A stretch of 64,000 nucleotides of DNA. Source: Streptantibioticus rubrisoli. GTDB taxonomy: Bacteria; Actinomycetota; Actinomycetes; Streptomycetales; Streptomycetaceae. The stretch lies in assembly GCF_024436055.1 (NCBI RefSeq), contig NZ_JANFNH010000008.1, positions 1 to 64,000 of the forward strand. The letters are read 5' to 3'. Made by a program: the position numbers and the translations under genes. The notes beneath the pieces were generated by a model, which saw only the letters and a program-made list of their open reading frames with translations, was not told the DNA's origin and did no database searches. Of this stretch, positions 4,504-45,706 are shown piece by piece. The first letter of the stretch is position 1, and the number at the start of each line of letters is the position of its first letter.

Positions 4504-6399
4504 TCACCCGACGGTGTCGTCCACCGGGGTCAGCGGCGGAGGCTCGGCCGCATAGCGGTTCTGTTCCGCGAGCAGCCGGGCGAACGGGCCACCGCACGCC
4601 CGTAGTTGCTGGTACGTGCCGCGCTCCGCGATACGGCCCGCCTGCAGGACGACGATCTCGTCCACCTGCCCCAGGGTGCTCAGCCGGTGGGAGATGACGA
4701 TCACGGTACGGCCGCGCGTGAGGTGTTCCAGCGCGCGCATGACCTCCGCCTCGGCCTCCACGTCCAGGTTCGAGGTCGGCTCGTCCAGGATCAGGATGGG
4801 CGCGTCGCGCAGCAGGGCCCGGGCGATGGCGATGCGCTGCCGCTGGCCGCGGGAGAGGTTCTTGCCCAACTCCCGCACTTCGGCCTGGTATCCGCCGGGC
4901 AGCGCGGTGATCGTGTCGTGGATGTGGGCCTGTTGGGCGGCGGCGATCACCTGCCCGTCGGTGGCGCCGGGGCGGCCGATGGCGATGTTGTCGTGCACGG
5001 TCCCCTCGAACAGGATCGCGTCCTCCGGCACCACGGCTATGTTGTCGCGCAGGACCGGCAGCGGGTAGTCGCGCACGTCCACGCCGTCCACGGTGATGGT
5101 GCCCTGCCAGGACTCGTAGAAGCGCGGCAGCAGCCTGGTCAAGGTGGTCTTCCCGCTGCCGGACAGCCCGACGAGGGCGAGCCGGGTGCCCGGGCGGATC
5201 TCCAGGTCCACCCCGTGCAGCACCGGCCGGTCCGGTTCGTAGCCGAACACCACGCCGCGGTAGGCGACTTCACCGCGCAGCCGCGAGGGGCCGATGTAGC
5301 GGGGGGCGGCGGAGCGTTCCTCAGGGGGCTGGTCGAGGATCTCCTCGATGCGTGCGGCCGCGGCTGACGCGGTGGACGCCAGCAGGGTGAGCTTCGACAG
5401 GTCGCGCATCGGCTGGTAGAGCTGCTTGGAGTAGGCGAGGAAGACGGTCAGGGTGCCGATGGTCAAGCTGGTGGCCGGAACGGTGAGGAACCCCAGCGAG
5501 TAGCCGTGGGCATGCCCGGCGGCGATCCAGGCGCCCAAGGTGATGATCACCACGTCGCTCACCGTGATGAAGACCATGACCAGCGGGTTGAACTCGGCCT
5601 GTCGGCGCCCGGCCCGCAGCCCGAAGCGCCGCTGCCGGTCCACATGGCCCGCGAAGGCCCGGGCCGCCCAGCGCTCCAGGGTGAACGCCTTCAGCTCCAC
5701 GATCGCGGTGATGGACGCGTTGGCCACCCGGGCCACCTGCCCGGCCGCGCGGGCCGCTTCCTTGGAGGCCCGTTTGACCCACCGGGTGTAGAGCAGGACG
5801 GTCACGAACAACAGGGGGGCGATGCACATCGCCAGTACGGTGAACTGCCAGTTGATCACCAGCATCACGGTGAGGATCCCGGCGAGGGTCAGCACCCCCG
5901 ACAGCAGGTCGACCAGTCCGTCGGTGACCAGCTTCTCGATGTCGGTGATGTTGCCGCTCACCCGTTGGACGACCTCGCCGACCTGCTGGCGGACATGCCA
6001 GTCGAGGCCGAGGTGCTCGATGTGGGTGAACAGCTGCTTGCGCAGCCTCGCCCCCAGGTCCTGGCCGACGAACGCCGCCACGGAGAGCTGGACGAACGCC
6101 ACCACCGCGCTGATCAGCCCGAGGGCGAGGAACACCAGTCCGGCGAAGAGCAGCACGCCGAGTTGGGTGTGCGACTCCATGGGGTTCAGTCCGCTGCGGT
6201 CACCAAACCGGTCGAAGCCGTCGAGCAGCCAGCCGGTGCCCGGGATGCGGGGATCCCGGTGATTGACGATCTTGTCCAGGATGATCTTGAAGGGGAAGGC
6301 CGCGAGGACATCGCTCGCCACGGCGGTGAAGGTCAGCGCGACCGCGAGGCAGACCAGCAGCCGACGGCCCCGCAGGGCGCGGTAGAGGAAGCGGATCAT
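4504..6399 (-). CDS. ABC exporter, fused permease and ATPase (half transporter)
   Basis: Protein of 631 residues: a type I exporter transmembrane domain (about 1-330, roughly six membrane helices) followed by a nucleotide-binding domain. Walker A GLSGSGKTT is near 411-418, the signature is LSRGQ (near 516) instead of LSGGQ, and Walker B ILILDEP is near 535. The H-loop SHRLS follows. A half transporter of this type works as a homodimer. The ATG at 6397-6399 overlaps the upstream stop as ATGA and has AAGGGGGG in front, so it is the third gene of a tightly coupled operon with two ATP-grasp proteins. Export of the product made by those enzymes is the likely role; the substrate is unknown. Confidence 0.92.
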   Translation of the reverse strand: MIRFLYRALRGRRLLVCLAVALTFTAVASDVLAAFPFKIILDKIVNHRDPRIPGTGWLLDGFDRFGDRSGLNPMESHTQLGVLLFAGLVFLALGLISAVVAFVQLSVAAFVGQDLGARLRKQLFTHIEHLGLDWHVRQQVGEVVQRVSGNITDIEKLVTDGLVDLLSGVLTLAGILTVMLVINWQFTVLAMCIAPLLFVTVLLYTRWVKRASKEAARAAGQVARVANASITAIVELKAFTLERWAARAFAGHVDRQRRFGLRAGRRQAEFNPLVMVFITVSDVVIITLGAWIAAGHAHGYSLGFLTVPATSLTIGTLTVFLAYSKQLYQPMRDLSKLTLLASTASAAAARIEEILDQPPEERSAAPRYIGPSRLRGEVAYRGVVFGYEPDRPVLHGVDLEIRPGTRLALVGLSGSGKTTLTRLLPRFYESWQGTITVDGVDVRDYPLPVLRDNIAVVPEDAILFEGTVHDNIAIGRPGATDGQVIAAAQQAHIHDTITALPGGYQAEVRELGKNLSRGQRQRIAIARALLRDAPILILDEPTSNLDVEAEAEVMRALEHLTRGRTVIVISHRLSTLGQVDEIVVLQAGRIAERGTYQQLRACGGPFARLLAEQNRYAAEPPPLTPVDDTVG

Positions 6400-8552
6400 C
6401 CGTTCCCCCCTTCGGCGAACCGTTCCAGGCACCGCTCGATCTCCGCCGCGACTGCGCGCGGTTCGGCGGGGCGGGGGCTGCTCAGACGGCGCACCCGGCG
6501 CGAAGCGATCTTCAGTTGCAGTGCGGCGTCGAACAGGGCGGCGCGTCGCGGTACCGCCGCGAACCGCCCCGGGTCGGCGCCCCGGTCGGCCAGCGCCGCC
6601 AGATACGCGCCGAGGAAGGCCTCCCTGGCCGCCTCGTACCAGGCGCGGTTGCCGCGTGGCCGCGTCGGTCGCAGATACGCCAGGAAGTACCCCACGTCGA
6701 GCGCCGGATCGCCCTGGCCGGTGCCGTCCAGATCGGTGATGACCGGATGACCGGGCGGGCAGAAGACGAGCTGGCTGGGCTTGAACGCGCCGTGTACGAG
6801 GGCGGTTTGGGCGGTCCCGGTCCGCTCCAGCGCCTCGGCGAGCGGTTGGACGGTCCCGTCCAGCTCGCCGGACAGGGCGTGCGCCCAGGCACGCACCCGG
6901 GCCGCGTAGCGGGGGCCGTCCGGCGCGGTCCGCCCGGACGAGACCGTGCTGGTGTGCAGCCAGGCGAGCGCCGCCGCGCTGGCGGCCAGCGCCGCGTGCG
7001 GTGGACGCACCCCGTCGCGCGCCCGCCGCGGCGGCCGGAGCAGCGCCGTGCCGGGCAGTTGGCCGCCACCGTGGGCGCCGCCCGCCGTCTCGGTGAGCAC
7101 CAGCCCCAACTCCTCGACCAGGCCCAACGTCCTTGGGACGGCGGCCTGTTCACCGCCGACCGCCCACAGCCGCTCGCCGAGTCGGTGGGCGGCCGCCGCG
7201 TCGGCAAGATCGCGGTAGAGCTTGCCGAAGAAGACCAGTTCCTCCCCGCTGGACAGCCGTACCTCGTAGCGCAGTACACAACGGGCCGCGGGCTTGTAGC
7301 GGACCGGGGTCGCCCGCACCTCCTCGACGCGGGCCCGGGGATCCTCCAGCACCGTCCTGGCCGCCGCCGTCAACGCGGTGGCCACGGCGCCGTCCGGCGG
7401 CGCGGTGGCGCAGGCGGCGGGCAACGCGGGCAGCTCGGCGTCGTGCGGGAAGGACTGCAGCGTCAGGCCGATCCGAGGGCAGCGCAGCACGCCGGGCCAG
7501 CGGCCGCGCGGTTCGGCCGGGTCGACGCGGGAAAACAGCTCGCCCGCACGCGGGTTGGCCAGCGCCGACTCATCGAGCCGTACGGTCACCAACGCCCCGG
7601 TGGCGCAGCGGTAGCTCGCGGTAAGCCCACGCCCCGGCTTGCGGCGAAGCGACGAGACCCGCAGCGGAGCGGCGTCACGGTCGAGCGCGCCGACCAGGTC
7701 GCGTACCGCCTCGTGCAGCGCCGCCACCGGCGACGCCGCCGCCTGCCGTGGCGCAGGATTGCGGTGCGGCGTCGCCTGCCGTACGAAGGTGGCGAGTGCC
7801 CGGGGCGCGCCCGGGACTCCGCGGCATCCGGGGAACGGGTTGACGTCGACCACCATCGGCCCGTCGCCGGTGTCGAGGATGTCGACGCCGTAGATCCGCA
7901 GGCCGAACACCTCGCCCACGGTCCGGGTCAGGTCGAGCCAACCCGCTGGCAGCCGCCACGGATCGAGCATGCGGGTCACCTTGGACGCGACGCCGTCCAA
8001 CGGGCTGCCCCGAAGACCGGCGAACACCCGCTCACCGATCACCCACAGCTTGTGGTCCAGACCGTCGTTGGCGACCAACTCCTGGACGACGACGGGCTCG
8101 TCGGCCCAGTCACCCTCCAATGCCCGCACCTGCTCCGGTCGGTCGAGTCGGGCCACCAGGTCCCCGCAGCGGCTGGCGCGGCTCTTGACGATGAGCGGGA
8201 AGCCCGGTGCCGAAGCGTGGGCCAGGTCGGAAAGCCGGGCGAGACGGCGGGTGTTGGGGAACGGCAGGCCGGACCTTCGGGCGAGGTCGGCCATCTGCCC
8301 CCGGTCCAGGCAGCGTTCGGTCGCGTCGGCGCCGTTCACCACCCGGCCGCCGAGGCGCTCCAGCCGCCGGGCGAGCGACACGGCACGCGGCGAATGGGAC
8401 TTGAGCAGATACAGGTCCGCGGTCGGTCCGAGGTCCCCGCAGTCCGGGTCGTCGGCGTCGAAGACCGTGACGCGGTGCCGTCGACCCAGGAGGTGGGGCA
8501 GCGCGGCCAGCAGTGGATGCTCCGCGTGGTGGGTGAGCAGGCAGACCCTCAT
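6396..8552 (-). CDS. ATP-grasp domain fused to APH-like phosphotransferase fold
   Basis: Protein of 718 residues with two parts. Residues 1 to about 300 form an ATP-grasp protein paralogous to the upstream gene, with FPLIVKSRASRCGD, VVVQELVANDG and the metal-binding end VVDVNPFPGCRGVP. Residues from about 320 are an aminoglycoside-phosphotransferase/choline-kinase fold. In its catalytic loop the usual HGDxxxxN is HGAFKPSQ (His near 587): the catalytic Asp is Ala and the Asn is Gln, while the downstream ITDLDG metal-binding Asp is kept. The second half may therefore be a non-canonical or inactive kinase. The start overlaps the upstream stop (ATGA) and the end overlaps the ABC exporter start (ATGA). 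Function unknown; a ligase that tags a carboxylate with an amine or peptide is the general ATP-grasp reaction. Confidence 0.85.
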   Translation of the reverse strand: MRVCLLTHHAEHPLLAALPHLLGRRHRVTVFDADDPDCGDLGPTADLYLLKSHSPRAVSLARRLERLGGRVVNGADATERCLDRGQMADLARRSGLPFPNTRRLARLSDLAHASAPGFPLIVKSRASRCGDLVARLDRPEQVRALEGDWADEPVVVQELVANDGLDHKLWVIGERVFAGLRGSPLDGVASKVTRMLDPWRLPAGWLDLTRTVGEVFGLRIYGVDILDTGDGPMVVDVNPFPGCRGVPGAPRALATFVRQATPHRNPAPRQAAASPVAALHEAVRDLVGALDRDAAPLRVSSLRRKPGRGLTASYRCATGALVTVRLDESALANPRAGELFSRVDPAEPRGRWPGVLRCPRIGLTLQSFPHDAELPALPAACATAPPDGAVATALTAAARTVLEDPRARVEEVRATPVRYKPAARCVLRYEVRLSSGEELVFFGKLYRDLADAAAAHRLGERLWAVGGEQAAVPRTLGLVEELGLVLTETAGGAHGGGQLPGTALLRPPRRARDGVRPPHAALAASAAALAWLHTSTVSSGRTAPDGPRYAARVRAWAHALSGELDGTVQPLAEALERTGTAQTALVHGAFKPSQLVFCPPGHPVITDLDGTGQGDPALDVGYFLAYLRPTRPRGNRAWYEAAREAFLGAYLAALADRGADPGRFAAVPRRAALFDAALQLKIASRRVRRLSSPRPAEPRAVAAEIERCLERFAEGGNG

Positions 8553-35240: not shown

Positions 35241-36524
35241 TCAGAGGTGTCCGCTGACGAACTCGGCCACCTGCGAACCGAGTTGCTGCCCCGAGCGGTT
35301 GTCGATGCTGGTGTGCTGACCGGCCCAGATACGGCTGAGCGCGGCATCGCTGGCGGCGGCCGGGACGCTGTCGAAGGTCCGGGTGGTGCCCTTCGCGGTC
35401 AGCGCGAGATGGTGCTGTGCGCCGAAGAACCCGGTGAGCACCGACTGCGCCACCTGACTGAGCGCGGCGTGCGCGCCCGGGAAGGACGGGTCAGGCGCGG
35501 TCGGCAGCAGCGGCGTCCAGCCGGGGTCGCCCATCACGCGCGGGTTGTAGTGCGTGCCGCCCAGCCGGATGGCGGTGACCGGGCGCCAGACCCGGTAGTG
35601 GTACTTGGCGTCGTACAGCGCGATCACGGTGTCGGCCAGCGACAGGTCGAGGGTGGCGAAGGCTTTCACCGTCTTTTCCAGGCTGGTGTTCTGGGCGGTC
35701 GCCAGGTCCTGTGCGGCCTGGTTCCAGAGGTTCCAGATGGGCGCCGCCGCCCAGAACCTTCCGGACGCGGTCTGGTCGGGGGTGCGGGTGGCGCTGGTGT
35801 CCTGGCCCAGTTTCTCGACCTCGTTCAGCGCTGCCGCGTACGCGGCACTGCTGACCGGCGGTGGCGCGGCGGGCCGGAACTGGCTCGCGCTGGTCAACAC
35901 GAACGGCTTGACCGAGCCCCAGTTGGTGTACACCGGTGCGGGCGAGCCCGGCGTCGGCCGGTACGCGCCCGGCCCGGCCCCGGGGACGAAGCGTGGGGGT
36001 ACGGCCGAGGAGCCGTCGTGGGAGCGCAGTGCGATCAGCCGACGGGCGACCGCGGCGCCGACCCGGATGCCGTTCCGCTTGGCGCCGCCGCCGGGTATCG
36101 CGGCCAGCTGGCCGGTCAGCCGCTGGTCGACCCGGGCCCGCATGGCCGGGTAGAGGGCGACCAGCACGTCGTGTGCCGCCTGGTCCGCCGCCGCGTCCGC
36201 GCGGGCGCCACGCGGCGCGGCCACCGAGAACAGATAGGAGGGGTCCGCCCGGGTGATGGCCACCACCGCGTCGTACTCGGCGGCCTGCAGGATCGCGAAG
36301 CTGCGCGTCGGGTGGACGGTGGCCGGTTGGGCCTTCGGATCGCTCAGGATCGAGATGAGCTCACGGTTCCACTCCACCACCGACGTGCCTGATCCAGCGG
36401 CGGCTGGCCGGTTGACGGCCGGGTGCGCGACGGTGGCGGCGCTGGTCCCGTAGGCCGGTGCGGTGAGTCCGGCGGCCAACGCGGTTCCGGTCAGTACGGC
36501 GAGTGTCTTGCCTATTCCGCCCAT
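35241..36524 (-). CDS. Vanadium-dependent haloperoxidase / PAP2 superfamily secreted protein
   Basis: Protein of 427 residues with a signal peptide (about 1-30). The phosphate/vanadate-binding motifs of the PAP2-haloperoxidase fold are visible in order: KYHYRVWRP (K-x6-RP), PSFPGAHA (in place of the simple PSGH) and SRIWAGQHTSID (SR-x5-H). Similar secreted proteins are common in Streptomyces; only some are true haloperoxidases, the rest may be phosphatases. The ATG at 36522-36524 follows AAGGAA. It is divergent from the PPOX/NRPS-like cluster with 387 bp between them, so it could be a tailoring enzyme of that cluster, but its signal peptide argues for an extracellular role. Confidence 0.87.
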   Translation of the reverse strand: MGGIGKTLAVLTGTALAAGLTAPAYGTSAATVAHPAVNRPAAAGSGTSVVEWNRELISILSDPKAQPATVHPTRSFAILQAAEYDAVVAITRADPSYLFSVAAPRGARADAAADQAAHDVLVALYPAMRARVDQRLTGQLAAIPGGGAKRNGIRVGAAVARRLIALRSHDGSSAVPPRFVPGAGPGAYRPTPGSPAPVYTNWGSVKPFVLTSASQFRPAAPPPVSSAAYAAALNEVEKLGQDTSATRTPDQTASGRFWAAAPIWNLWNQAAQDLATAQNTSLEKTVKAFATLDLSLADTVIALYDAKYHYRVWRPVTAIRLGGTHYNPRVMGDPGWTPLLPTAPDPSFPGAHAALSQVAQSVLTGFFGAQHHLALTAKGTTRTFDSVPAAASDAALSRIWAGQHTSIDNRSGQQLGSQVAEFVSGHL

Positions 36525-36911
36525 GTCCTGTGGCTTCCTTTCGCTGACGACGGATTCTGGAAAACCGTCGGCCATAGCCCCTTGTCGAAAGCTCGACGGG
36601 CAGGGTGTAACAGGCACCCGTCTGCCGGACTGTTGAACTCGGTCGGCCGTCCGCCAAAGGCGGTGCCGCTCACCGATACGGCCGGTGGCCAGATACACAC
36701 TGCGGGCACCCTCGGCACCCCGCAACTCCGGCCGCACGACCCGAGTGGCCCATCCCCGATCGGCGCAATGGCGAGCCGCGAATCCTACATCCCGGGGATT
36801 GGCCCGGCATGTCGGTGTACATGGCGCAGCGCCGGGCACCGAACATGCGAATCTCGTTCTGTCACGCCTCTTTTCAGCAGCCCACCCGCCACCCGAAAGG
36901 CGTAACCGACA
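36525..36911. other. 387-bp divergent promoter region
   Basis: This region separates the leftward haloperoxidase-like gene from the rightward biosynthetic operon and must carry both promoters. I see no gene, no clear dyad and no riboswitch in it. GAAAGG about 10 bases before 36912 serves the PPOX gene. Confidence 0.5.
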
Positions 36912-37364
36912 GTGGATTTGGCGATGTCCGTGGAAGACCGGGAGAAGTTCCTCGCCGACATGCATGTGGGGGTGCTCGGAGTGCACGATCCACGCGGTGT
37001 GCGGGCACCACTGCTGGTGCCGGTCTGGTACGGGTACGAGCCCGGCGGCGAGGTACTGGTGCAGACGGGACGGGAGTCGGTGAAAGCCCGACTGGTCCGC
37101 GAGTCGGGACGGTTCAGCCTGTGCGCACAAAAGGAATCCGCCCCCTACCAGTACGTCAGCGTGGAAGGCCCGGTCGTGGCCGTTGACGATCCGGTGCCAC
37201 CGGCCCAGCGCGAAGCGCTGGCGCACCGCTATCTGGACCCGGAGACCGCCTCGGCGTATCTGAAGGCCAACGAACGCCAACTCAGTGACGACATCCTCTT
37301 CCATATGCGCCCGCAGCGCTGGCGCACCGCCGACTTCTCCGCATTCGCCGCGGAATTCAACTAG
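36912..37364 (+). CDS. Pyridoxamine 5'-phosphate oxidase (PPOX)-fold protein
   Basis: Protein of 150 residues with the split-barrel flavin-binding pattern: FLADMHVGVLGVHDPRGVRAPLLVPVWYGYEPGGEVLVQTG and then KARLVRESGRFSLCAQKESAPYQYVSVEGPVVAV. Proteins of this size bind FMN or F420 (or haem) and catalyse redox steps or simply sequester flavin. It starts at GTG 36912 (an ATG 4 codons later is possible) and ends 23 bp before the NRPS-like gene, in the same operon, which suggests a role in the same pathway or in self-protection. Confidence 0.85.
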   Translation: MDLAMSVEDREKFLADMHVGVLGVHDPRGVRAPLLVPVWYGYEPGGEVLVQTGRESVKARLVRESGRFSLCAQKESAPYQYVSVEGPVVAVDDPVPPAQREALAHRYLDPETASAYLKANERQLSDDILFHMRPQRWRTADFSAFAAEFN

Positions 37365-37387
37365 CAAGGGCGAGGGGCAGGTCTGCG

Positions 37388-40384
37388 ATGACGATCGCTG
37401 GCGCGACGCGGAATGCGGAAGGCCCGCAGGATGGCTGCCTGCACGAGTTGTTCGACGCACAGGCGGCGCTCCGCCCCCGTGCACACGCCGCCGTGCACCA
37501 CGGCCGCGCCCTGGCCTACGGTGAACTCAAGGCAGCCTCCGAGGAGTTGGCCGCCCGCCTGCACCACGCAGGGGTGCGGTACGGCGACACCGTGGGCGTC
37601 CTCGGAAACCGCTCGCTGGAAGCGCTGGTCGCGTTCGTGGGCATCCTCAAGACCGGCGCCGCCTACGTCCCCCTGGACGACACCTCGCCGCCGCACCGCC
37701 TCCAGGCCATGGCCGACGAAGCCGGAGTGCAAACCGTCGTGACGCTGCCCGGCAGCGTCCGCCGACTCCGCCGGGTACGTACCCACATCGACCTGGCCGC
37801 CCCGGCGCCCGCCAGCCCCGACAACGTACCGCGGCCGCGGACCACCCCGGCGGACTGCGCCTACGTGATGTTCACCTCCGGATCGACCGGCCGCCCCAAA
37901 CCGGTGGCCGTTCCGCACCGCGGCGTGGTGCGGCTGGCCGTCTCGGACCTGGTCGCACAGCGACCGCGCCCGGGCGAGCGGGTGCTGCACGCCTACGGGC
38001 TGTCCTCGGACGCCTCCACGATCGAGATCTGGGCCGCCCTGCTGGGCGGTGGCTGCCTGGTCCTGGTCGACCGGGAGGATCTGCTCTCGCCCGCGGTGCT
38101 GGAGGAGCGGCTGGCCGCCGAGCGGGTGGCCATCGCCTATCTGACGACGGGCGTCTTCCACCACGTGGCCCGCGCCCGGCCGCAGGCACTGCGCACCCTG
38201 CGGTTCGCGTCCGCGGGCGGCGAGGCGATGGATCCGGACCTGACCCGCGCCGTACTGGCGGCCTGTCCGGACACCACCGTCGTCAACTTCTACGGGCCGA
38301 CCGAGAACAGCGTGGTCTCCACCGCCTACGTGGTGCGTGAACTCCCAGCGGGCCAGCAGAGCGTGCCGATCGGCCGCCCCCTGGAGCATTCCGTCTGCCA
38401 CGTCCTGCGGGAGGACGGCACGCCCGCCGAGGTGGGGGAGGAGGGTGAACTGTTCGTCGGCGGCGAGGGCCTGGCCCTGGGCTACCTCGGCGACCCCGAA
38501 CTGACCGCCGCCCGCTTCGTGGAGCGCCCGGTCGCCCCCGGCACCCGGCTGTACCGCACCGGGGACCGTGCCGTCCGGCGGGAGGACGGCGAACTGGAGT
38601 ACCGCGGCCGGGCGGACCGCCAGATCAAACTGCGCGGACAACGCATCGAACTGGACGAGATCGAGGCCCGGCTACGGGCGGACGACGCGGTCGGCGAGGC
38701 CGTCGTGGAAGAGGACGGCGACACCCTGACCGGCTACGTCACCCCCGCCCGCGAGGCAGAGGCGGTGCCGCTGGACCGGGTGCGCAAGGAGTTGGCAGCA
38801 TGGCTGCCCCCGGCGGCGGTCCCGGCCCGGCTGGTGGAGGTCGCGCAGTTCCCGGTCACCGCGGCGGGCAAGGTCGACCGACGCCGACTGCGGGAGGTCG
38901 CGGACCGCGTCGCACCGGTCGAAGTCCCGGGCGAGCACGGCCCGTTGGCCGATGTCTGGCAGACCGTGCTGCGCGCCCAACCAGGCGCCGACGATGACTT
39001 CTTCGAACTCGGCGGTGACTCACTGCTGGCCGCCGAGGTCGTCAACCGCACTCTGACCGCGCTGGACATCGACGCCCGGCACGGCAGCACCCTGGTGCAC
39101 AGCCTGCTCCGGCACCCCACGCTGCGCGGCTACACCGCGGCCGTGGACGCCATCCAGCACAGCAAGTCACCGCATACGTCGTCCCCGGTGGACTACCGGG
39201 CCGAAGCCCGGCTCGGCTTCACCCTGCCAACGCCCCGGGCACCCGCCCCCAACTGGCGGCGGCCCCGCGACGTACTGCTCACCGGCGCCTCCGGATTCGT
39301 CGGCGCCTTCCTCCTCGACCGGTTGCTGCGCCGCACCGACGCCCGCATCCACTGCCCGGTGCGCAGCCGGGACCGAACCCACGCCGAACACCGCGTGACG
39401 GCGAACCTGGCCCGCTACGGCCTGCCCCGCCCACCGGCCGACCGCCTCGTCTGCTTCCCGGCCGACCTCGCCGAGGAAGACCTGGGCCTGCCGGTCGGCC
39501 ACACCGACGAACTCGCCGACATCCTCGACCTCGTGGTGCACGCCGCGGCTCAGGTCAACTTCCTCTATCCGTACGACGCTTTGCGCAGAGCCAATGTGAG
39601 CGCCACCAAACAGCTGGTGCGGCTGGCGGCGCAGCGCGCAGTGCCCGTGCACTTCCTGTCCACCATCGCCGTGGTGGCTGGCTTCGGTACCGCGGGCGTA
39701 CGCGAGGTGGCCGAGGATCTTCCCCTGGACCACGCCGACCGGCTCACCATGGGCTACGCCGAGAGCAAGTGGGTCGCGGAACAGTCACTTCAGGAGGCCG
39801 CGCGACAGGGCCTGCCGATCGCGGTCTACCGCCCCTACGAAGTCACCGGCGACCGCGACACCGGTGCCTGCAACACCGAAACCGCCATCTGCTCACTGTT
39901 CAAGACCGTCGCCGAGACCGGCCTCGCCCCCGACATCCCGCTCCCGTTGGACTTCGTACCCGCCGACTACCTCGCCGAAGCCGTCGTCCGTATCGCCACC
40001 GAACAGCCCGCGACCAACCTCACGTACCACCTCACCAACCCCCGCCCGGCGACGCTGCACGCCATGCTCGACCGGATGCGCGCCGCGGGGCACCAGATCC
40101 GCCAACTGCCCTACCGGGAATGGGTCGACGAACTGGTCCGTCATGTCGCACGCAATCCCACCAGCCCCACCGCACCGTTCGTGTCGCTGTGCGTGGACCG
40201 CAGCCACAAGGCGGACATGTCCGTCAAGGAGATGTACTTCGAAGGCACGTTCCCGACGCTGGGACGCACCAACGTCGAGCGCGCCGTCGGCGACCTGCCG
40301 TGCCCGCCCGTGGACGCCGACCTGCTGGACCGCTACCTGGAGTACTTCTACGCGACCGGCTACATCGAACGACCCACGAAGTAG
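37388..40384 (+). CDS. NRPS-like A-T-R protein (adenylation, carrier, thioester reductase)
   Basis: Protein of 998 residues. The adenylation domain (about 20-510) has FTSGSTGRPKP (A3, near 160), SDASTIEIWAALLGGG (A4, keeping the Asp that binds the substrate amino group), NFYGPTEN (A5) and the catalytic Lys in AAGKVDRRR near 493. A carrier domain follows with DDFFELGGDSLL (Ser near 544), then an NAD(P)-dependent reductase domain (about 620-998) with LLTGASGFVG near 629 and GYAESK near 787. It has no condensation domain, so it should load one amino-acid-like substrate and release it as an aldehyde or alcohol. The pocket residues read by eye do not match a specificity I know. Two P450 genes and a tautomerase follow in the operon. 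Confidence 0.93.
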   Translation: MTIAGATRNAEGPQDGCLHELFDAQAALRPRAHAAVHHGRALAYGELKAASEELAARLHHAGVRYGDTVGVLGNRSLEALVAFVGILKTGAAYVPLDDTSPPHRLQAMADEAGVQTVVTLPGSVRRLRRVRTHIDLAAPAPASPDNVPRPRTTPADCAYVMFTSGSTGRPKPVAVPHRGVVRLAVSDLVAQRPRPGERVLHAYGLSSDASTIEIWAALLGGGCLVLVDREDLLSPAVLEERLAAERVAIAYLTTGVFHHVARARPQALRTLRFASAGGEAMDPDLTRAVLAACPDTTVVNFYGPTENSVVSTAYVVRELPAGQQSVPIGRPLEHSVCHVLREDGTPAEVGEEGELFVGGEGLALGYLGDPELTAARFVERPVAPGTRLYRTGDRAVRREDGELEYRGRADRQIKLRGQRIELDEIEARLRADDAVGEAVVEEDGDTLTGYVTPAREAEAVPLDRVRKELAAWLPPAAVPARLVEVAQFPVTAAGKVDRRRLREVADRVAPVEVPGEHGPLADVWQTVLRAQPGADDDFFELGGDSLLAAEVVNRTLTALDIDARHGSTLVHSLLRHPTLRGYTAAVDAIQHSKSPHTSSPVDYRAEARLGFTLPTPRAPAPNWRRPRDVLLTGASGFVGAFLLDRLLRRTDARIHCPVRSRDRTHAEHRVTANLARYGLPRPPADRLVCFPADLAEEDLGLPVGHTDELADILDLVVHAAAQVNFLYPYDALRRANVSATKQLVRLAAQRAVPVHFLSTIAVVAGFGTAGVREVAEDLPLDHADRLTMGYAESKWVAEQSLQEAARQGLPIAVYRPYEVTGDRDTGACNTETAICSLFKTVAETGLAPDIPLPLDFVPADYLAEAVVRIATEQPATNLTYHLTNPRPATLHAMLDRMRAAGHQIRQLPYREWVDELVRHVARNPTSPTAPFVSLCVDRSHKADMSVKEMYFEGTFPTLGRTNVERAVGDLPCPPVDADLLDRYLEYFYATGYIERPTK

Positions 40385-40426
40385 CGGCACTTCCCCCAGA
40401 AACGGCAACCCGGAAGGCCAGCCAGC

Positions 40427-41638
40427 ATGACCGCACCGTCCCCCCAAGCGCCGGACCGCGAACCCGACGTGCTGGACTTCCCGCTCCCGCCACCGGGCAG
40501 CATGGGCCCGCCCGAGCAGTACGCACGGCTGCGCACCGACTGCCCGGTGGCCCGGGTCGGTATGCCGCTGGGCGCCACCGCCTGGTACGTCACCCGTTAC
40601 GACGACGTACGCGAACTCATCGCCGACCCACGGCTGGTCAGACCCACCATCAACGACTGGCCTGCCCGCCGCGACGACCCCGCTCACCACGGCCCCGCCC
40701 TGACCACCATGGCGGAACTGGAGGGCCCACGGCATGCCGCGCTGCGTCGGGCAGTCGGTCCGGCGTTCAGCGCCAGGTCCATCCGGGACCGCATGCCGCG
40801 CATCCGGTGCCTCGCCGAGCGACTGCTGGCGGATTTCCAGGACCGCGGTAGCCCCGGCGACCTGGTCGCCGGATTCACCGAGCCGTTCCCCCTGCTGGTG
40901 CTGTGCGACCTGGTGGGCATCCCGTACGAGGACCGAAACCGCTTCCTGCCCGTACTGGACGACGCGCTCGATGGGATGGTGAGCGCGCGGGAGAGCCGCC
41001 GGGTCACCGATCTGCTGCGCGGGTACGTCGGCGAACTCATCGCACGCAAAAGGCGATCACCCGGTGACGATGTGCTGAGCCAACTCGTCCACCAGTGCGG
41101 CGAGGGGGAGTTGAACGATGAGGACCTGCTCGCCTTCGGGTTGTCCATGCTCACCGTTGGCTTCGGCATCAGCGGCTTCTTCCTGGCCAACGCGGTGCAC
41201 ACACTGCTGGCCCAGCCCGGCCACTACGCCCGGCTGCGCGACGCACGGCATCTGATGTCCGACGCGGTGGAGGAAGTGCTGCGCTACATGCCGGTGATGA
41301 ACGGCACCGTCCTGCTGCTGGCCACCGAGGACGTCGAGGTGAACGGGCAGACGGTCCGCAAGGGCGAAGCCGTGGTGCCCGTGCTCGCCTCCGCCAACCG
41401 CGACGAGAGCGTGTTTACCGACGCCGACCGGCTCGACCTGTGCCGGGCCGCCAACAACCACCTCGCCTTCGGCCGGGGCGTCCACTACTGCCTCGGCTCC
41501 CATCTGGCGCGCGCCGAACTCACCGTGGGACTTGAGGCGTTGTTCGACCACTTCCCACTACTGCGCCTGGCTGGCACACCCACCTGGGACGACGAGTCCC
41601 TGACGAAGTCACCACTGACCCTGCCGGTCAGCTGGTGA
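40427..41638 (+). CDS. Cytochrome P450 (first of a tandem pair), atypical I-helix
   Basis: Protein of 403 residues with P450 signatures: EEVLRYMP (ExxR), ANRDESVFTDADRLDLCR and haem loop FGRGVHYCLGSHLARAEL (Cys near 355). In the I-helix, where AGxD/ET is normal, it reads VGFGIS: the acid is Gly and the Thr is Ile. Oxygen activation may thus differ, as in P450s that couple or rearrange substrates (the C-terminal LPVSW and lengths resemble CYP121-like enzymes). The ATG at 40427 lies 42 bp after the NRPS-like stop with GGAAGG in front. It is clearly paralogous to the next gene over its whole length. Confidence 0.93.
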   Translation: MTAPSPQAPDREPDVLDFPLPPPGSMGPPEQYARLRTDCPVARVGMPLGATAWYVTRYDDVRELIADPRLVRPTINDWPARRDDPAHHGPALTTMAELEGPRHAALRRAVGPAFSARSIRDRMPRIRCLAERLLADFQDRGSPGDLVAGFTEPFPLLVLCDLVGIPYEDRNRFLPVLDDALDGMVSARESRRVTDLLRGYVGELIARKRRSPGDDVLSQLVHQCGEGELNDEDLLAFGLSMLTVGFGISGFFLANAVHTLLAQPGHYARLRDARHLMSDAVEEVLRYMPVMNGTVLLLATEDVEVNGQTVRKGEAVVPVLASANRDESVFTDADRLDLCRAANNHLAFGRGVHYCLGSHLARAELTVGLEALFDHFPLLRLAGTPTWDDESLTKSPLTLPVSW

Positions 41639-41652
41639 GGGAGGACCGAGCC

Positions 41653-42867
41653 GTGACCGGCACACCGCGGACGGCGCCGCCGGCACCCGACATGGATATG
41701 CCCATCCCGCCACCCGGCAGCATGGGACCGCCCACCGAATATCCACGGCTGCGCGAGCAGTGTCCGCTGGCCAGGGTACGGCTGCCGATCGGCGCCACCG
41801 CCTGGTACGTCACCCGCTACGACGATGTGCGCGACCTGATCGCGGATCCCCGCCTCGTCAGACCCACCATCAACGACTGGCCGCCCGGTGCCCGCGGTGC
41901 CAGCGCCGACGACGAGCCGGGCCTGATCACCATGATGGAACTCAACGGCCCACGGCACGCCGCCCTGCGCAGGGCGTTGGCCGAGCCGTTCAGCGTGCGT
42001 TCCATCCGGCGCCGACTGCCGTGCGTCCAGCGCTGCGCCGACCTTCTGCTGGACGAGTTCGCCGAGCGCGGTCGGCCCGGCGACGTGGTCGTGGGGTTCT
42101 GCGAGCCGTTCCCGTTGCTGGTGATGTGTGAGCTGGTGGGCATCCCGTACGCGGACCGTGAGTACTTCCTGCCCATGGCGGACGCCGCCCTCGGCGCGCT
42201 GGTCACCCTGGAGGAGGGCCGCGAAGCCACCCGCCTGCTGCGCGAGTACATCCACACGCTGCTGGACCGCAAGCGGCGCGAGCCCGCCGACGACATGCTC
42301 ACCCAACTCGTGTCCGACTGCGACCGCGGCACCCTGGACGAGGAGGGCGTGCTGAACTTCGGCCTGTCCATGCTCATCGCCGGATACCGCACGAGCACCA
42401 TGTTCCTGAGCAACGCCGTACTGGCCCTGCTCACCGAACCCGGCCAGTACGCCCGGCTGCGTGACGACCGCGGTCTGCTGCCCGGTGCGGTGGAGGAACT
42501 CCTGCGCTACGTACCAGTGATGAACGGGGTCGTCGTCCTGCAGGCGGTGGCGGACATCGAGTTGCACGGCCGCACCATCCGCGCGGGCGACGCGGTGCTT
42601 CCGGTGCTCGCCGCGGCCAACCGCGACGAGCGCGTCTTTCCCGACGCCGACCGGCTCAACCTGTGCCGCGCCGACAACCCCCACCTGGTCTTCGGCCGCG
42701 GCCCGCACAACTGCATCGGATCCCATCTGGCCCGCACCGAACTGTCCGTGGGGCTCGGCGCGTTGCTGGACCGCTTCCCCGAACTGCGCATCGCGGAGGG
42801 CCACCACACGATCTGGGACGACGAGTCCCCCAGCAAGTCACCACTGACCCTGCGGGTCGACTGGTAG
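41653..42867 (+). CDS. Cytochrome P450 (second of a tandem pair), atypical I-helix
   Basis: Protein of 404 residues, a paralogue of the preceding P450 that shares long identical stretches (PPPGSMGPP, GATAWYVTRYDDVR, DPRLVRPTINDW). ExxR is in EELLRYVP, the haem loop is FGRGPHNCIGSHLARTEL (Cys near 353). Its I-helix reads AGYRTS: the Thr is kept but the acid is replaced by Arg. The GTG at 41653 follows GGGAGG at 8 bases; an earlier GTG overlapping the upstream stop is less likely. The tandem arrangement suggests duplication followed by specialisation within one pathway. Confidence 0.93.
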   Translation: MTGTPRTAPPAPDMDMPIPPPGSMGPPTEYPRLREQCPLARVRLPIGATAWYVTRYDDVRDLIADPRLVRPTINDWPPGARGASADDEPGLITMMELNGPRHAALRRALAEPFSVRSIRRRLPCVQRCADLLLDEFAERGRPGDVVVGFCEPFPLLVMCELVGIPYADREYFLPMADAALGALVTLEEGREATRLLREYIHTLLDRKRREPADDMLTQLVSDCDRGTLDEEGVLNFGLSMLIAGYRTSTMFLSNAVLALLTEPGQYARLRDDRGLLPGAVEELLRYVPVMNGVVVLQAVADIELHGRTIRAGDAVLPVLAAANRDERVFPDADRLNLCRADNPHLVFGRGPHNCIGSHLARTELSVGLGALLDRFPELRIAEGHHTIWDDESPSKSPLTLRVDW

Positions 42868-42948
42868 CCAACGCGCCACACACCGGCCGCCCGCGCCGTG
42901 CCCGTCTGGCCCGTCGCGGCGTACCGCGCGCCAACAGCCCGCATGTGT

Positions 42949-42966
42949 GTACCTACTAGTATGTAC
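42949..42966. promoter_or_regulatory. 18-bp near-perfect palindrome upstream of the tautomerase gene
   Basis: GTACCTACTAGTATGTAC is symmetric about ACTAGT with 16 of 18 bases matching its complement. It lies 56 bp before the tautomerase ATG and overlaps a possible -10 (TAGTAT at 42957). It looks like a TetR- or MarR-type operator; whether the TetR encoded at 43482-44123 binds it is untested. Confidence 0.55.
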
Positions 42967-43021
42967 GATCGGATCATCGGAGGCCTGCCGCCCAACGCCA
43001 TCCTGAGAGGAATCCTCTGCC

Positions 43022-43429
43022 ATGCCATTCGTTCGTATCGACGCGTTGCGGATCGACAGCGATCGGCTCGACGCGCTCGGCCGCGCCGTGGGCGATGCCC
43101 TGGTGGAAACGATCCGCGTCCCGCCCGAGGACCGGTTCCAGGTACTGACCAGCCATGACGGCACCAACAGCACACTGCGCTACGGCGATTACCTCGGCGT
43201 GCCCCGTGACGAAGGCATCGTGTACGTCGCGATCACGATGCGTTCCGGCCGCAGCGCGGCGCAGAAGCGGGCGCTGTACCGGCGGATCGCCGAACTCGCC
43301 CACGAATACGCTGGAACCGAGCCCCGGAACGTGTTCGTCACCGTCACCGAGAACGAGTCGATCGACTGGTCCTTGGGCTACGGGCTGGCGCAGTACGCGG
43401 AGTCCACCGAGGCGGTCGGCCAACGGTGA
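43022..43429 (+). CDS. Tautomerase superfamily protein (Pro1)
   Basis: Protein of 135 residues that begins MPFVRIDALR, giving the catalytic N-terminal Pro after Met removal. The fold is a double beta-alpha-beta: DRLDALGRAVGDALVETIRVP, then YVAITMRSGRSAAQKRALYRRIAELAHEYAGTEPRNVFVTVTENESIDWSLGYG, which matches the longer 4-oxalocrotonate-tautomerase/MSAD-like members (~130 aa). It catalyses keto-enol or related isomerisation. AGAGGA lies 10 bases before the ATG within a short dyad (43006-43018). The gene is on the same strand and 154 bp after the P450 pair but has its own palindrome-bearing promoter, so it may be a separate unit of the same cluster. Confidence 0.88.
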   Translation: MPFVRIDALRIDSDRLDALGRAVGDALVETIRVPPEDRFQVLTSHDGTNSTLRYGDYLGVPRDEGIVYVAITMRSGRSAAQKRALYRRIAELAHEYAGTEPRNVFVTVTENESIDWSLGYGLAQYAESTEAVGQR

Positions 43430-43481: not shown

Positions 43482-44123
43482 TCACGTCGATTGCTCGGTG
43501 GCCGCCGGTGCCGGTCGTGGCGGCACGCTCGTGGTGAACAGTCTGTCCAGGTATTCGTCGACGGCGGTCAGTACGTCCTGGGGCTCGATCACGTCCAGTT
43601 CGATCAGTGTGGTGAAACCAGTGAGGGCGAGCAGCAGATTGGTCTCGGTCACCGGGTCGCGGTCAGGCTGGATGTATCCGTCGGCCATCGCCTGACGGAC
43701 CAACTGCTCGACGAGGGCGCGCCCTTGAGTGATCCCCTCCCGCGCCCGCGCATGGACGGTGCTGTCATGCAGCGCCTCCAGTACGTAGGCGGCGCTCATC
43801 CGGCTGGTCGCGCGAGCGTCGGCGTGCAGGGGCAGCATCTCCGTAAGCATCACTCGCAGTACGTCGCGCGGGTGCGGCTGATCCCCCAGCTCCTGGAGGC
43901 CCTGGTCGACGCGCAGCGATGTCTGCTCTGCCGCGAAGTCCATGGCGAAGGAGAGCATCGCCTCCCGGGAGGTGAAGTAGTGCTGCAACTGCCCGAGGGA
44001 GATGCCCGCCTCCTGGGCAACCTCGCGCATCGTCAGGTGTGCGACGCCGTGCTGCTCCACCACCCGCCAAAGTGCTCGGGCGATCGCTTCGCGGCGTTCG
44101 CGGTGATCCACCTGTTTCGGCAT
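43482..44123 (-). CDS. TetR/AcrR family transcriptional regulator
   Basis: Protein of 213 residues. HTH at about 8-56 (REAIARALWRVVEQHGVAHLTMREVAQEAGISLGQLQHYFTSREAML) is of the AcrR/BetI-like type and is followed by a helical ligand-binding domain typical of BetI/YxaF-like regulators. The ATG at 44121-44123 has GGAG at 9 bases; an ATG 11 codons upstream lacks a ribosome binding site. It is divergent from a carboxylesterase gene 92 bp away, the usual arrangement for a repressor and its target. It could also regulate the adjacent biosynthetic genes. Confidence 0.92.
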   Translation of the reverse strand: MPKQVDHRERREAIARALWRVVEQHGVAHLTMREVAQEAGISLGQLQHYFTSREAMLSFAMDFAAEQTSLRVDQGLQELGDQPHPRDVLRVMLTEMLPLHADARATSRMSAAYVLEALHDSTVHARAREGITQGRALVEQLVRQAMADGYIQPDRDPVTETNLLLALTGFTTLIELDVIEPQDVLTAVDEYLDRLFTTSVPPRPAPAATEQST

Positions 44124-44215
44124 CGTGGGCTTCTCCGTTGGGGTTCGCGTTCCCATACGATTGACATAATACATCTGACCTATAACCCTGGAGGTCCGCT
44201 GAGGATGGAGGCGAC

Positions 44216-45706
44216 ATGCCCGAACGGCCAAGGGTGCGAACCGCGCAGGGTGTGGTGGAGGGCCGCTGGCGGCAGGGGCACGCGGAGTTCCGCGGCATCC
44301 CCTACGCCCAACCACCGGTGGACGCACTCCGCTTCGCCGCCCCCGTTCCGCCGCGGCGGTGGGAAGGGACAAGAAGGGCGGCCGAGTTCGGCCCCGTGCC
44401 ACCGCAGTCCGGGCCGGTCCCGGCGAGTTCGCCGGAAGGCACCGACTGGTTGACCCTCAATGTCTGCACCCCGGATCCGGGTAGGGCGCGGTTGCCGGTG
44501 CTGGTGTGGATTCCCGGCGGCGGCTACATGGCGGCCGACTCGGGCGACCCGATGTACGATCCGGCGGCGCTGGCCGGGGCGGGACTGGTCGTGGTGAGCG
44601 TCAACTACCGGGTGGGCGCGGAGGGGTTCGCGCTCCTCGACGGTGCGCCCCCCAACCGAGGATTCCTGGACCAGATCGCGGCACTGCACTGGGTTCGGCG
44701 GAACATCGCTGCCTTCGGCGGGGACCCGGACCAGGTCACCGTCGCCGGACAGTCGGCAGGGGCGGGATCGATCGCTGCCCTGCTGACGATGAAGCCGGTG
44801 CGCGGCCTGTTCCGACGGGCCATCACCCACTCGGTACCCGGCCTCCACTGCACCCCCGCGCTGGCGGAACAGGTGGCCGCCGAGCTCGCGCACCGGCTCG
44901 GCGCCACGCCCACCGCGGCGTCCCTCGCCGATGTCAGCCCCCTACGCCTGGCTGAAGAGGTCACCTCCCTCAGCGCCGATCTCCCTGGCTACCGCGGGAG
45001 TTGGGGGCGGCTCTCCCAGACCGGTCTTGCCGTATGCCCCGTCGTCGACGGTGAAGTCCTGCGCGAGACGCCCTGGGCCGCACTGGCCAGTGGCCGGGCG
45101 GACGGAATCGAGCTCCTCGTCGGACATGCCCGGGACGAATTCCGTCTGTTCACCGTCATGAGCGGACGGCTGGGCACGTTCACCGACGAGGATGCCCGTA
45201 CCGCCCTGGACCTGTTCGCCCCGGCACCGGACGGCGCCCACGCCTACCGTGCCGCCCACCCGCACGGCAATGCTGAGCAGTTGGTGGAATCGGTGTACTC
45301 CGACGCTCTCTTCCGGATACCTTCACTGAAGTTGGCCCAGGCGAACGCCGCCGCTGGCGGTAGCTCGTTCCTCTTCGAACTGCGACTGGCCTCCCCGGCC
45401 TTCGGAGGGGCCCTGGGTGCCTGTCACAGCCTGGACGTGCCCCTGGCATTCGGCACGCTGGCCAGCCCGAACGGCAAAGGGCTGCTCGGCGACCCACCCA
45501 GCCCACAGGCCATCGCGGTGTCGCGGGAGCTCCAACAGGCATGGATCGGCTTCGTCACCACTGGCGACCCCGGCTGGGCCGCTTACCGCCCCGACCAGCA
45601 GCTCACTCGGGTCCTGGACGCCGAATCGAAGACGGTTCCCTACCCCGAGCAGACCTCCGGCCAGATCTGGGAAGGGCACCTCCCGGAACCCTTCGATCTG
45701 GTGTAG
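44216..45706 (+). CDS. Type B carboxylesterase / lipase
   Basis: Protein of 496 residues with the carboxylesterase type B pattern: RGIPYAQPPV, WLTLNVCTPDPG, oxyanion GGGYM, the nucleophile VAGQSAGAGS and the catalytic His in GACHSLDVPL. The acid residue lies in the VGHARDEFRLF region. It lacks a signal peptide and is therefore cytoplasmic; hydrolysis of a xenobiotic or of a cluster product ester is likely. The ATG at 44216 follows GATGGAGG. TTGACA at 44161 is a candidate -35 in the region shared with the divergent TetR gene. Confidence 0.92.
   Translation: MPERPRVRTAQGVVEGRWRQGHAEFRGIPYAQPPVDALRFAAPVPPRRWEGTRRAAEFGPVPPQSGPVPASSPEGTDWLTLNVCTPDPGRARLPVLVWIPGGGYMAADSGDPMYDPAALAGAGLVVVSVNYRVGAEGFALLDGAPPNRGFLDQIAALHWVRRNIAAFGGDPDQVTVAGQSAGAGSIAALLTMKPVRGLFRRAITHSVPGLHCTPALAEQVAAELAHRLGATPTAASLADVSPLRLAEEVTSLSADLPGYRGSWGRLSQTGLAVCPVVDGEVLRETPWAALASGRADGIELLVGHARDEFRLFTVMSGRLGTFTDEDARTALDLFAPAPDGAHAYRAAHPHGNAEQLVESVYSDALFRIPSLKLAQANAAAGGSSFLFELRLASPAFGGALGACHSLDVPLAFGTLASPNGKGLLGDPPSPQAIAVSRELQQAWIGFVTTGDPGWAAYRPDQQLTRVLDAESKTVPYPEQTSGQIWEGHLPEPFDLV

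Follow-up and report, generated by a model that had tools for sequence, protein, structure and literature searches.

In Penicillium, the herquline pathway starts from an enzyme of the adenylation-thiolation-reductase (A-T-R) type and continues with cytochrome P450 chemistry, by a single P450, on the amino-aldehyde dimer. In Xenorhabdus indica, the enzyme ATRed alone yields a phenylalanine-derived pyrazine, for which dimerization of the aldehyde and oxidation were proposed (PMC7586950). The A-T-R architecture is also used in chloramphenicol biosynthesis in Streptomyces (PMC7586950), and in Lentzea a monomodular enzyme resembling nonribosomal peptide synthetases (NRPSs), sharing 50% identity with a carboxylic acid reductase of Nocardia and adjoining an aroF homologue, was considered for the lentzeacins, the link to the product being left open (PMC8658869). 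P450-mediated coupling is illustrated by CYP121A1, the mycocyclosin synthase, which joins two tyrosine rings and has a proton relay of Ser237, Arg386, and Ser279 (PMC11084333). Here we describe a locus of Streptantibioticus rubrisoli within the first 64,000 nucleotides of contig NZ_JANFNH010000008.1 (the window; G+C ~70%, contig 93, assembly size 7.26 Mb), where genes for a PPOX-like oxidoreductase, an A-T-R enzyme, and two P450s stand side by side (36912-42867). Our tentative proposal, to which we give a probability of about 0.45, is that these four genes form an operon converting an amino acid to an amino aldehyde and then to a dihydropyrazine, with ring redox by the PPOX and tailoring by the P450s. 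The underlying chemistry, from A-T-R amino aldehyde to pyrazine, is already known in kind. Searches of the open-licence literature, from which most subscription papers are missing, did not turn up the PPOX-A-T-R-P450-P450 combination (weak evidence); a sequence-only reading of the window had not recognized it from a described pathway either, and within that literature this stands.

That reading had grouped the four genes with a downstream tautomerase gene as one small biosynthetic cluster. All five genes are present, with families borne out by Pfam, and scoring of G+C by codon position places them on the + strand. The gene for the PPOX-like split-barrel oxidoreductase (36912..37364, 150 aa) ends 23 bases before that for the A-T-R enzyme (37388..40384, 998 aa), which lies 42 bases from P450a (40427..41638, 403 aa); the reading frames of P450a and P450b (41635..42867, 410 aa) share 4 bases. 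Gene adjacency is the main argument for treating them together, and the unit is better read as four genes than as five: comparison of loci upheld the PPOX/A-T-R/P450/P450 part of the proposed cluster, but not the tautomerase. Terminator-like sites numbered 2, against 2.1 expected, and neither inverted repeats upstream of the PPOX gene nor alignment of this upstream region with that of the nearest related locus (L010) gave a clear operator. An open reading frame just upstream (36423-36905) was rejected as a gene, having no Pfam or NCBIfam match and a ratio of nonsynonymous to synonymous substitution rates (dN/dS) of 0.97 over 105 codons relative to L010.

The domain content of the A-T-R protein agrees with the earlier description of a single module lacking a condensation domain. 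Pfam detects AMP-binding, PP-binding, and NAD_binding_4, with no condensation family among its seven matches (E 0.001), and the NCBIfam models AA-adenyl-dom (391.6 bits) and Thioester-redct (281.3 bits) both score above cut-off. By the usual definitions of these motifs, the carrier serine (GGDS), the reductase tyrosine and lysine (GYAESK), and the glycine motif (TGASGFVG) are kept. The pocket code of the A domain, read by hand at positions taken from the GrsA numbering, is DAIGAAFVVK, and holds the Asp and Lys expected for an alpha-amino acid. For the R domain alone, the best-scoring solved chain is MxaA (4u7w), a four-electron reductase.

How the locus compares with described systems depends on the enzyme considered. 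Its likeness to the herquline pathway, which is fungal, is one of description. Chloramphenicol is a linear product, and its partner genes differ from those found here. As described, the chloramphenicol A-T-R enzyme is like that of the window in belonging to an actinomycete and acting on one amino acid (PMC7586950). ATRed shares with the window enzyme its single A, T, and R domains, the absence of a condensation domain, and release and dimerization of an amino aldehyde, proposed there and predicted here; its substrate is phenylalanine, whereas ours is predicted only as probably bulky or aromatic, and, unlike the present operon, the main text describing ATRed mentions no P450 and names no ring-oxidizing enzyme (PMC7586950). 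The Lentzea enzyme is likewise actinomycete and monomodular, and was considered a source of pyrazines via amino aldehydes (PMC8658869). The likeness to CYP121A1 is again one of description, and its substrate is a cyclodipeptide, unlike the amino-aldehyde dimer proposed here (PMC11084333).

The PPOX matches Pfam Pyridox_ox_2 (31.1 bits; cut-off 27) and scores 60.4 bits against NCBIfam TIGR03618 (Rv1155_F420), under the curated cut-off of 79.05, by which it classes as a relative of the Rv1155 family and not a member. A sequence search of the PDB returned nothing significant for it. Its structure model (predicted local distance difference test score 88.7, from a 20-row alignment) is most similar to the F420 reductase MSMEG_3380 (3f7e; Z 15.8, root-mean-square deviation 2.2, 126 residues aligned), which Foldseek likewise puts top, and to Rv1155 with F420 (4qvb; Z 15.2, deviation 2.7, 134 aligned), matches within Z 1 of one another being counted as tied; next, at Z 13-15, come an uncharacterized protein, another F420 enzyme, and relatives that bind haem and flavin. 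The modelled split-barrel fold is thus closest to F420-dependent enzymes, and the cofactor is probably F420 or flavin.

Conservation of the neighbourhood was assessed from an A-T-R search of 84,980 species genomes, in which the best 80 loci of a longer list were kept; 26 of these, with A-T-R identities of 57-88% (L010-L031, L034, L035, L037, and L041), form a close set. A gene for the same kind of PPOX immediately precedes the A-T-R gene in 24 of the 26, as established by gene calling except in L010 and L025, where tblastn was used; L024 carries a different PPOX-family gene (PNPOx_N) there, and in L019 the upstream region is cut off by the contig end. In 20 of the 26, a P450 pair follows downstream in the same orientation, with a methyltransferase gene inserted before it in L035; L018 and L023 each carry a single P450, in the opposite orientation, and L017, L024, L025, and L026 no adjacent P450. 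No PPOX was detected near the more distant A-T-R relatives L032 (41%) and L033 (45%). Searched with the PPOX, 33 of 200 genomes of the same family gave a match at E 1e-30, and an A-T-R gene was present in 9 of the 16 stretches around the better matches (8 genomes), adjoining the PPOX on the opposite strand in L132. PPOX and A-T-R thus occur together in at least 10 of the 200, counting that of the window and the sister genome G002, a count resting on the better PPOX matches, the weaker ones not being included. A PPOX search of 396 genomes from across the phylum at E 1e-40 recovered the own genome alone. All 221 plasmid records with a match were <60% identical; that of Streptomyces sp. SAT1 (43%) shows no PPOX in its gene table, which is incomplete, that of S. 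clavuligerus is unannotated in this region, and that of S. microflavus is a larger NRPS.

A next-nearest PPOX clade, 54-60% identical and from other Streptomycetaceae (L128-L131, L133, L134), stands near thiamine-pyrophosphate-enzyme and glutathione-peroxidase genes in 6 of the 16 stretches (by Pfam in L128, by clustering in the others). In two Nocardiopsidaceae loci (L022, 15559-17378; L030, 15853-17036), the operon is followed by 6-pyruvoyl-tetrahydropterin-synthase-like and GTP-cyclohydrolase-I-like genes, with a radical SAM gene between them in L022, a 7-deazapurine-like set; these genes were assigned by Pfam in L022 and by shared clusters in L030. Streptoalloteichus hindustanus has two A-T-R loci (L024 and L035), each with an O-methyltransferase-type gene nearby.

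The clusters with a P450 pair fall into two types. Type I comprises the window, L010, L011, L012, L013, L031, and L037, all with pocket code DAIGAAFVVK, and type II comprises 13 clusters with code DAISVAFVVK; L035, from S. hindustanus, stands next to type I, with code DAIGVAFVVK and two added methyltransferase genes. In a tree of P450s (44 rows), the type I proteins split into a P450a group and a P450b group, seven members each, with mirrored internal branching, the pair having arisen by a single duplication. The type I pair has a relative in the first P450 of type II, the second being more distant, and the two P450s of L035 group together (94/87, one long branch), so this pair may have a separate history. 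Most forks are well supported, with one weaker fork in each type I group (84/68 and 90/80). A tree of the A-T-R enzymes (29 rows, quick method) also recovers type I, with L035 beside it. Relative to the single relative L010, dN/dS is 0.11 for the PPOX, 0.21 for the A-T-R enzyme, 0.31 for P450a, 0.19 for P450b, and 0.33 for the tautomerase. Sequence comparison thus documents the domain content, the conserved neighbourhood, and a largely parallel history of the four genes.

Both P450s keep the haem cysteine loop and the ExxR motif, and both lack, as judged from alignment, the canonical acid-alcohol pair (E/D-T) of the I-helix. In P450a the motif is VGFGIS in all seven type I clusters, with acid and alcohol both gone from their usual places; in P450b it is AGYRTS in all seven, with Arg replacing the acid. 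Type II first P450s have AGY[KR]TN, and second P450s have GYED, where the acid is retained and the threonine is not. As a control, 22 distinct P450s were parsed from 33 family matches in the own genome, some of these being fragments of one gene; they were picked by the haem-loop pattern, so some P450s will have been missed. Outside the operon, acid and threonine are both present in 17 of 20 and the acid in 19 of 20, L151 (SGMNSV) having neither. CYP158A2, the biflaviolin synthase, is among the PDB matches listed for P450a, at ~E 2e-59 versus 3e-77 for the top match. PMC9023744 yielded nothing on the I-helix acid-alcohol pair. With the standard pair for oxygen activation lacking, coupling is no less plausible than plain hydroxylation, and the proton relay of CYP121A1 makes P450 coupling plausible here, though it does not demonstrate it.

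In the four-gene pathway that we favour, the A domain would activate a single, probably bulky or aromatic, alpha-amino acid, which the carrier domain would hold and the R domain would release as an alpha-amino aldehyde; two such aldehydes would condense to a dihydropyrazine. We infer release and dimerization by analogy, and an amino aldehyde able to dimerize, as the sequence-only reading had it, is consistent with the domain content and has precedents in the literature (PMC7586950; PMC8658869). The PPOX might then fix the ring by redox, either through oxidation to a pyrazine or through imine reduction of the F420H2 type, and the P450 pair might couple or oxidize the side chains; these two assignments are conjectural. 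Flavoenzymes of the PhzG type aromatize dihydrophenazines. The O-methyltransferase-type gene in L035 would fit a hydroxylated or phenolic product. Several observations weigh against this pathway. DAIGAAFVVK is not known to match any described code, so that substrate prediction failed; the R domain might reduce twice, giving an alcohol; and since no enzyme dedicated to ring oxidation is named in Xenorhabdus, pyrazine formation does not require a PPOX. Six of the 26 close relatives are without an adjacent same-strand P450 pair, none of the cluster genes was recognized as a redox partner, and a promoter scan gave no match, other promoter types being outside its reach. In addition, L012 groups with L011 and L031 in the A-T-R tree (Shimodaira-Hasegawa-like approximate likelihood ratio 97), but in that of the P450s its partners are L013 and L037; either the genes travelled together largely but not perfectly, or one of the trees is in error at this point.

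The same genes can be read in other ways. Hydroxylation of carrier-bound amino acids by P450s is well established, and a pathway in which the pair acts on the amino acid while it is carrier-bound (e.g., by beta-hydroxylation), with the R domain freeing a monomeric aldehyde or alcohol and no dimer being formed, would suit both the MxaA-like R domain and the chloramphenicol precedent for the architecture (PMC7586950). However, no carrier-bound amino-acid hydroxylase was recognized among the best 60 solved relatives listed for each P450, which has further matches beyond these, the acid-alcohol pair is missing from both, and the PPOX would be left with no obvious role; we consider this route rather unlikely. 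The near-constant PPOX (adjacent in 24 of 26 loci), set beside a P450 content that varies (twin in 20), instead invites the view that the PPOX is the sole constant partner, A-T-R and PPOX making a simple pyrazine or, given that F420-dependent enzymes are its closest folds, a piperazine through F420H2 imine reduction, with the P450s as interchangeable decoration. This view is partly compatible with the dihydropyrazine pathway, but twin P450s occur in most of the 26 loci and their parallel histories in type I indicate that the association is not casual there, and we regard the view as unlikely. A bolder version of the dihydropyrazine pathway, which we hold doubtful, is a separately evolved bacterial counterpart of herquline biosynthesis, in which A-T-R and PPOX would build a six-membered diaza ring out of two amino aldehydes and the duplicated P450s, their oxygen-activation helices dismantled, would act together, one per half, to form a C–C or C–N cross-link, giving rigid bridged alkaloids.

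The tautomerase-fold protein (43022..43429, + strand; Pfam Tautomerase_2) begins 154 bases beyond P450b, and resembles malonate semialdehyde decarboxylases, its top solved match being the FG41 enzyme (PDB 3mjz, E 4.5e-19), a catabolic enzyme. Its position, on the same strand and downstream of the P450s in L010 too, could suggest a five-gene pathway in which it isomerizes the product. However, among the 26 close loci it was seen in L010 alone (tblastn E 1e-8, 40% of length; flanks up to 10 kb, shorter at some loci), and an operator-like 18-base palindrome, GTACCTACTAGTATGTAC (42949..42966, no strand), separates it from P450b. This palindrome occurs once in the window, allowing up to 2 mismatches, and is letter-identical in L010 (15587-15604), where the intergenic DNA around it differs in large part, as judged by eye; its weight rests on this conservation because the shuffle control came after the pattern was seen. 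The palindrome is a candidate operator and perhaps a sign of separate regulation of the tautomerase. The gene was rejected as a member on these grounds and is probably outside the pathway, a role for it being highly improbable.

Other neighbours were also considered. The flanking PAP2, ABC ATPase, and 543-aa genes, rejected as members, recur in L010, but elsewhere only the ABC ATPase finds a match, at 27-41% identity in some close loci. An ABC ATPase gene stands divergent beside the PPOX gene in L011, L012, L031, and L037, the L012 pair being an ABC-2 type ATPase and a membrane protein, and an exporter linked to the operon is possible. The TetR gene at 43482-44402 has no match in L010. Far upstream (4504-8552), an ABC transporter lies beside a 718-aa protein that matches RimK ATP-grasp; this may be a distinct locus for a ligase of small peptides or amino acids.

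Overall, the putative operon is carried by many soil actinomycetes, as two types spread over several families, and at ~6 kb it is small enough for expression of the whole pathway and direct identification of the product. With it one can test whether a PPOX sets the oxidation state of a ring arising from aldehyde dimerization, and what chemistry paired P450s perform when the usual oxygen-activation residues are missing.

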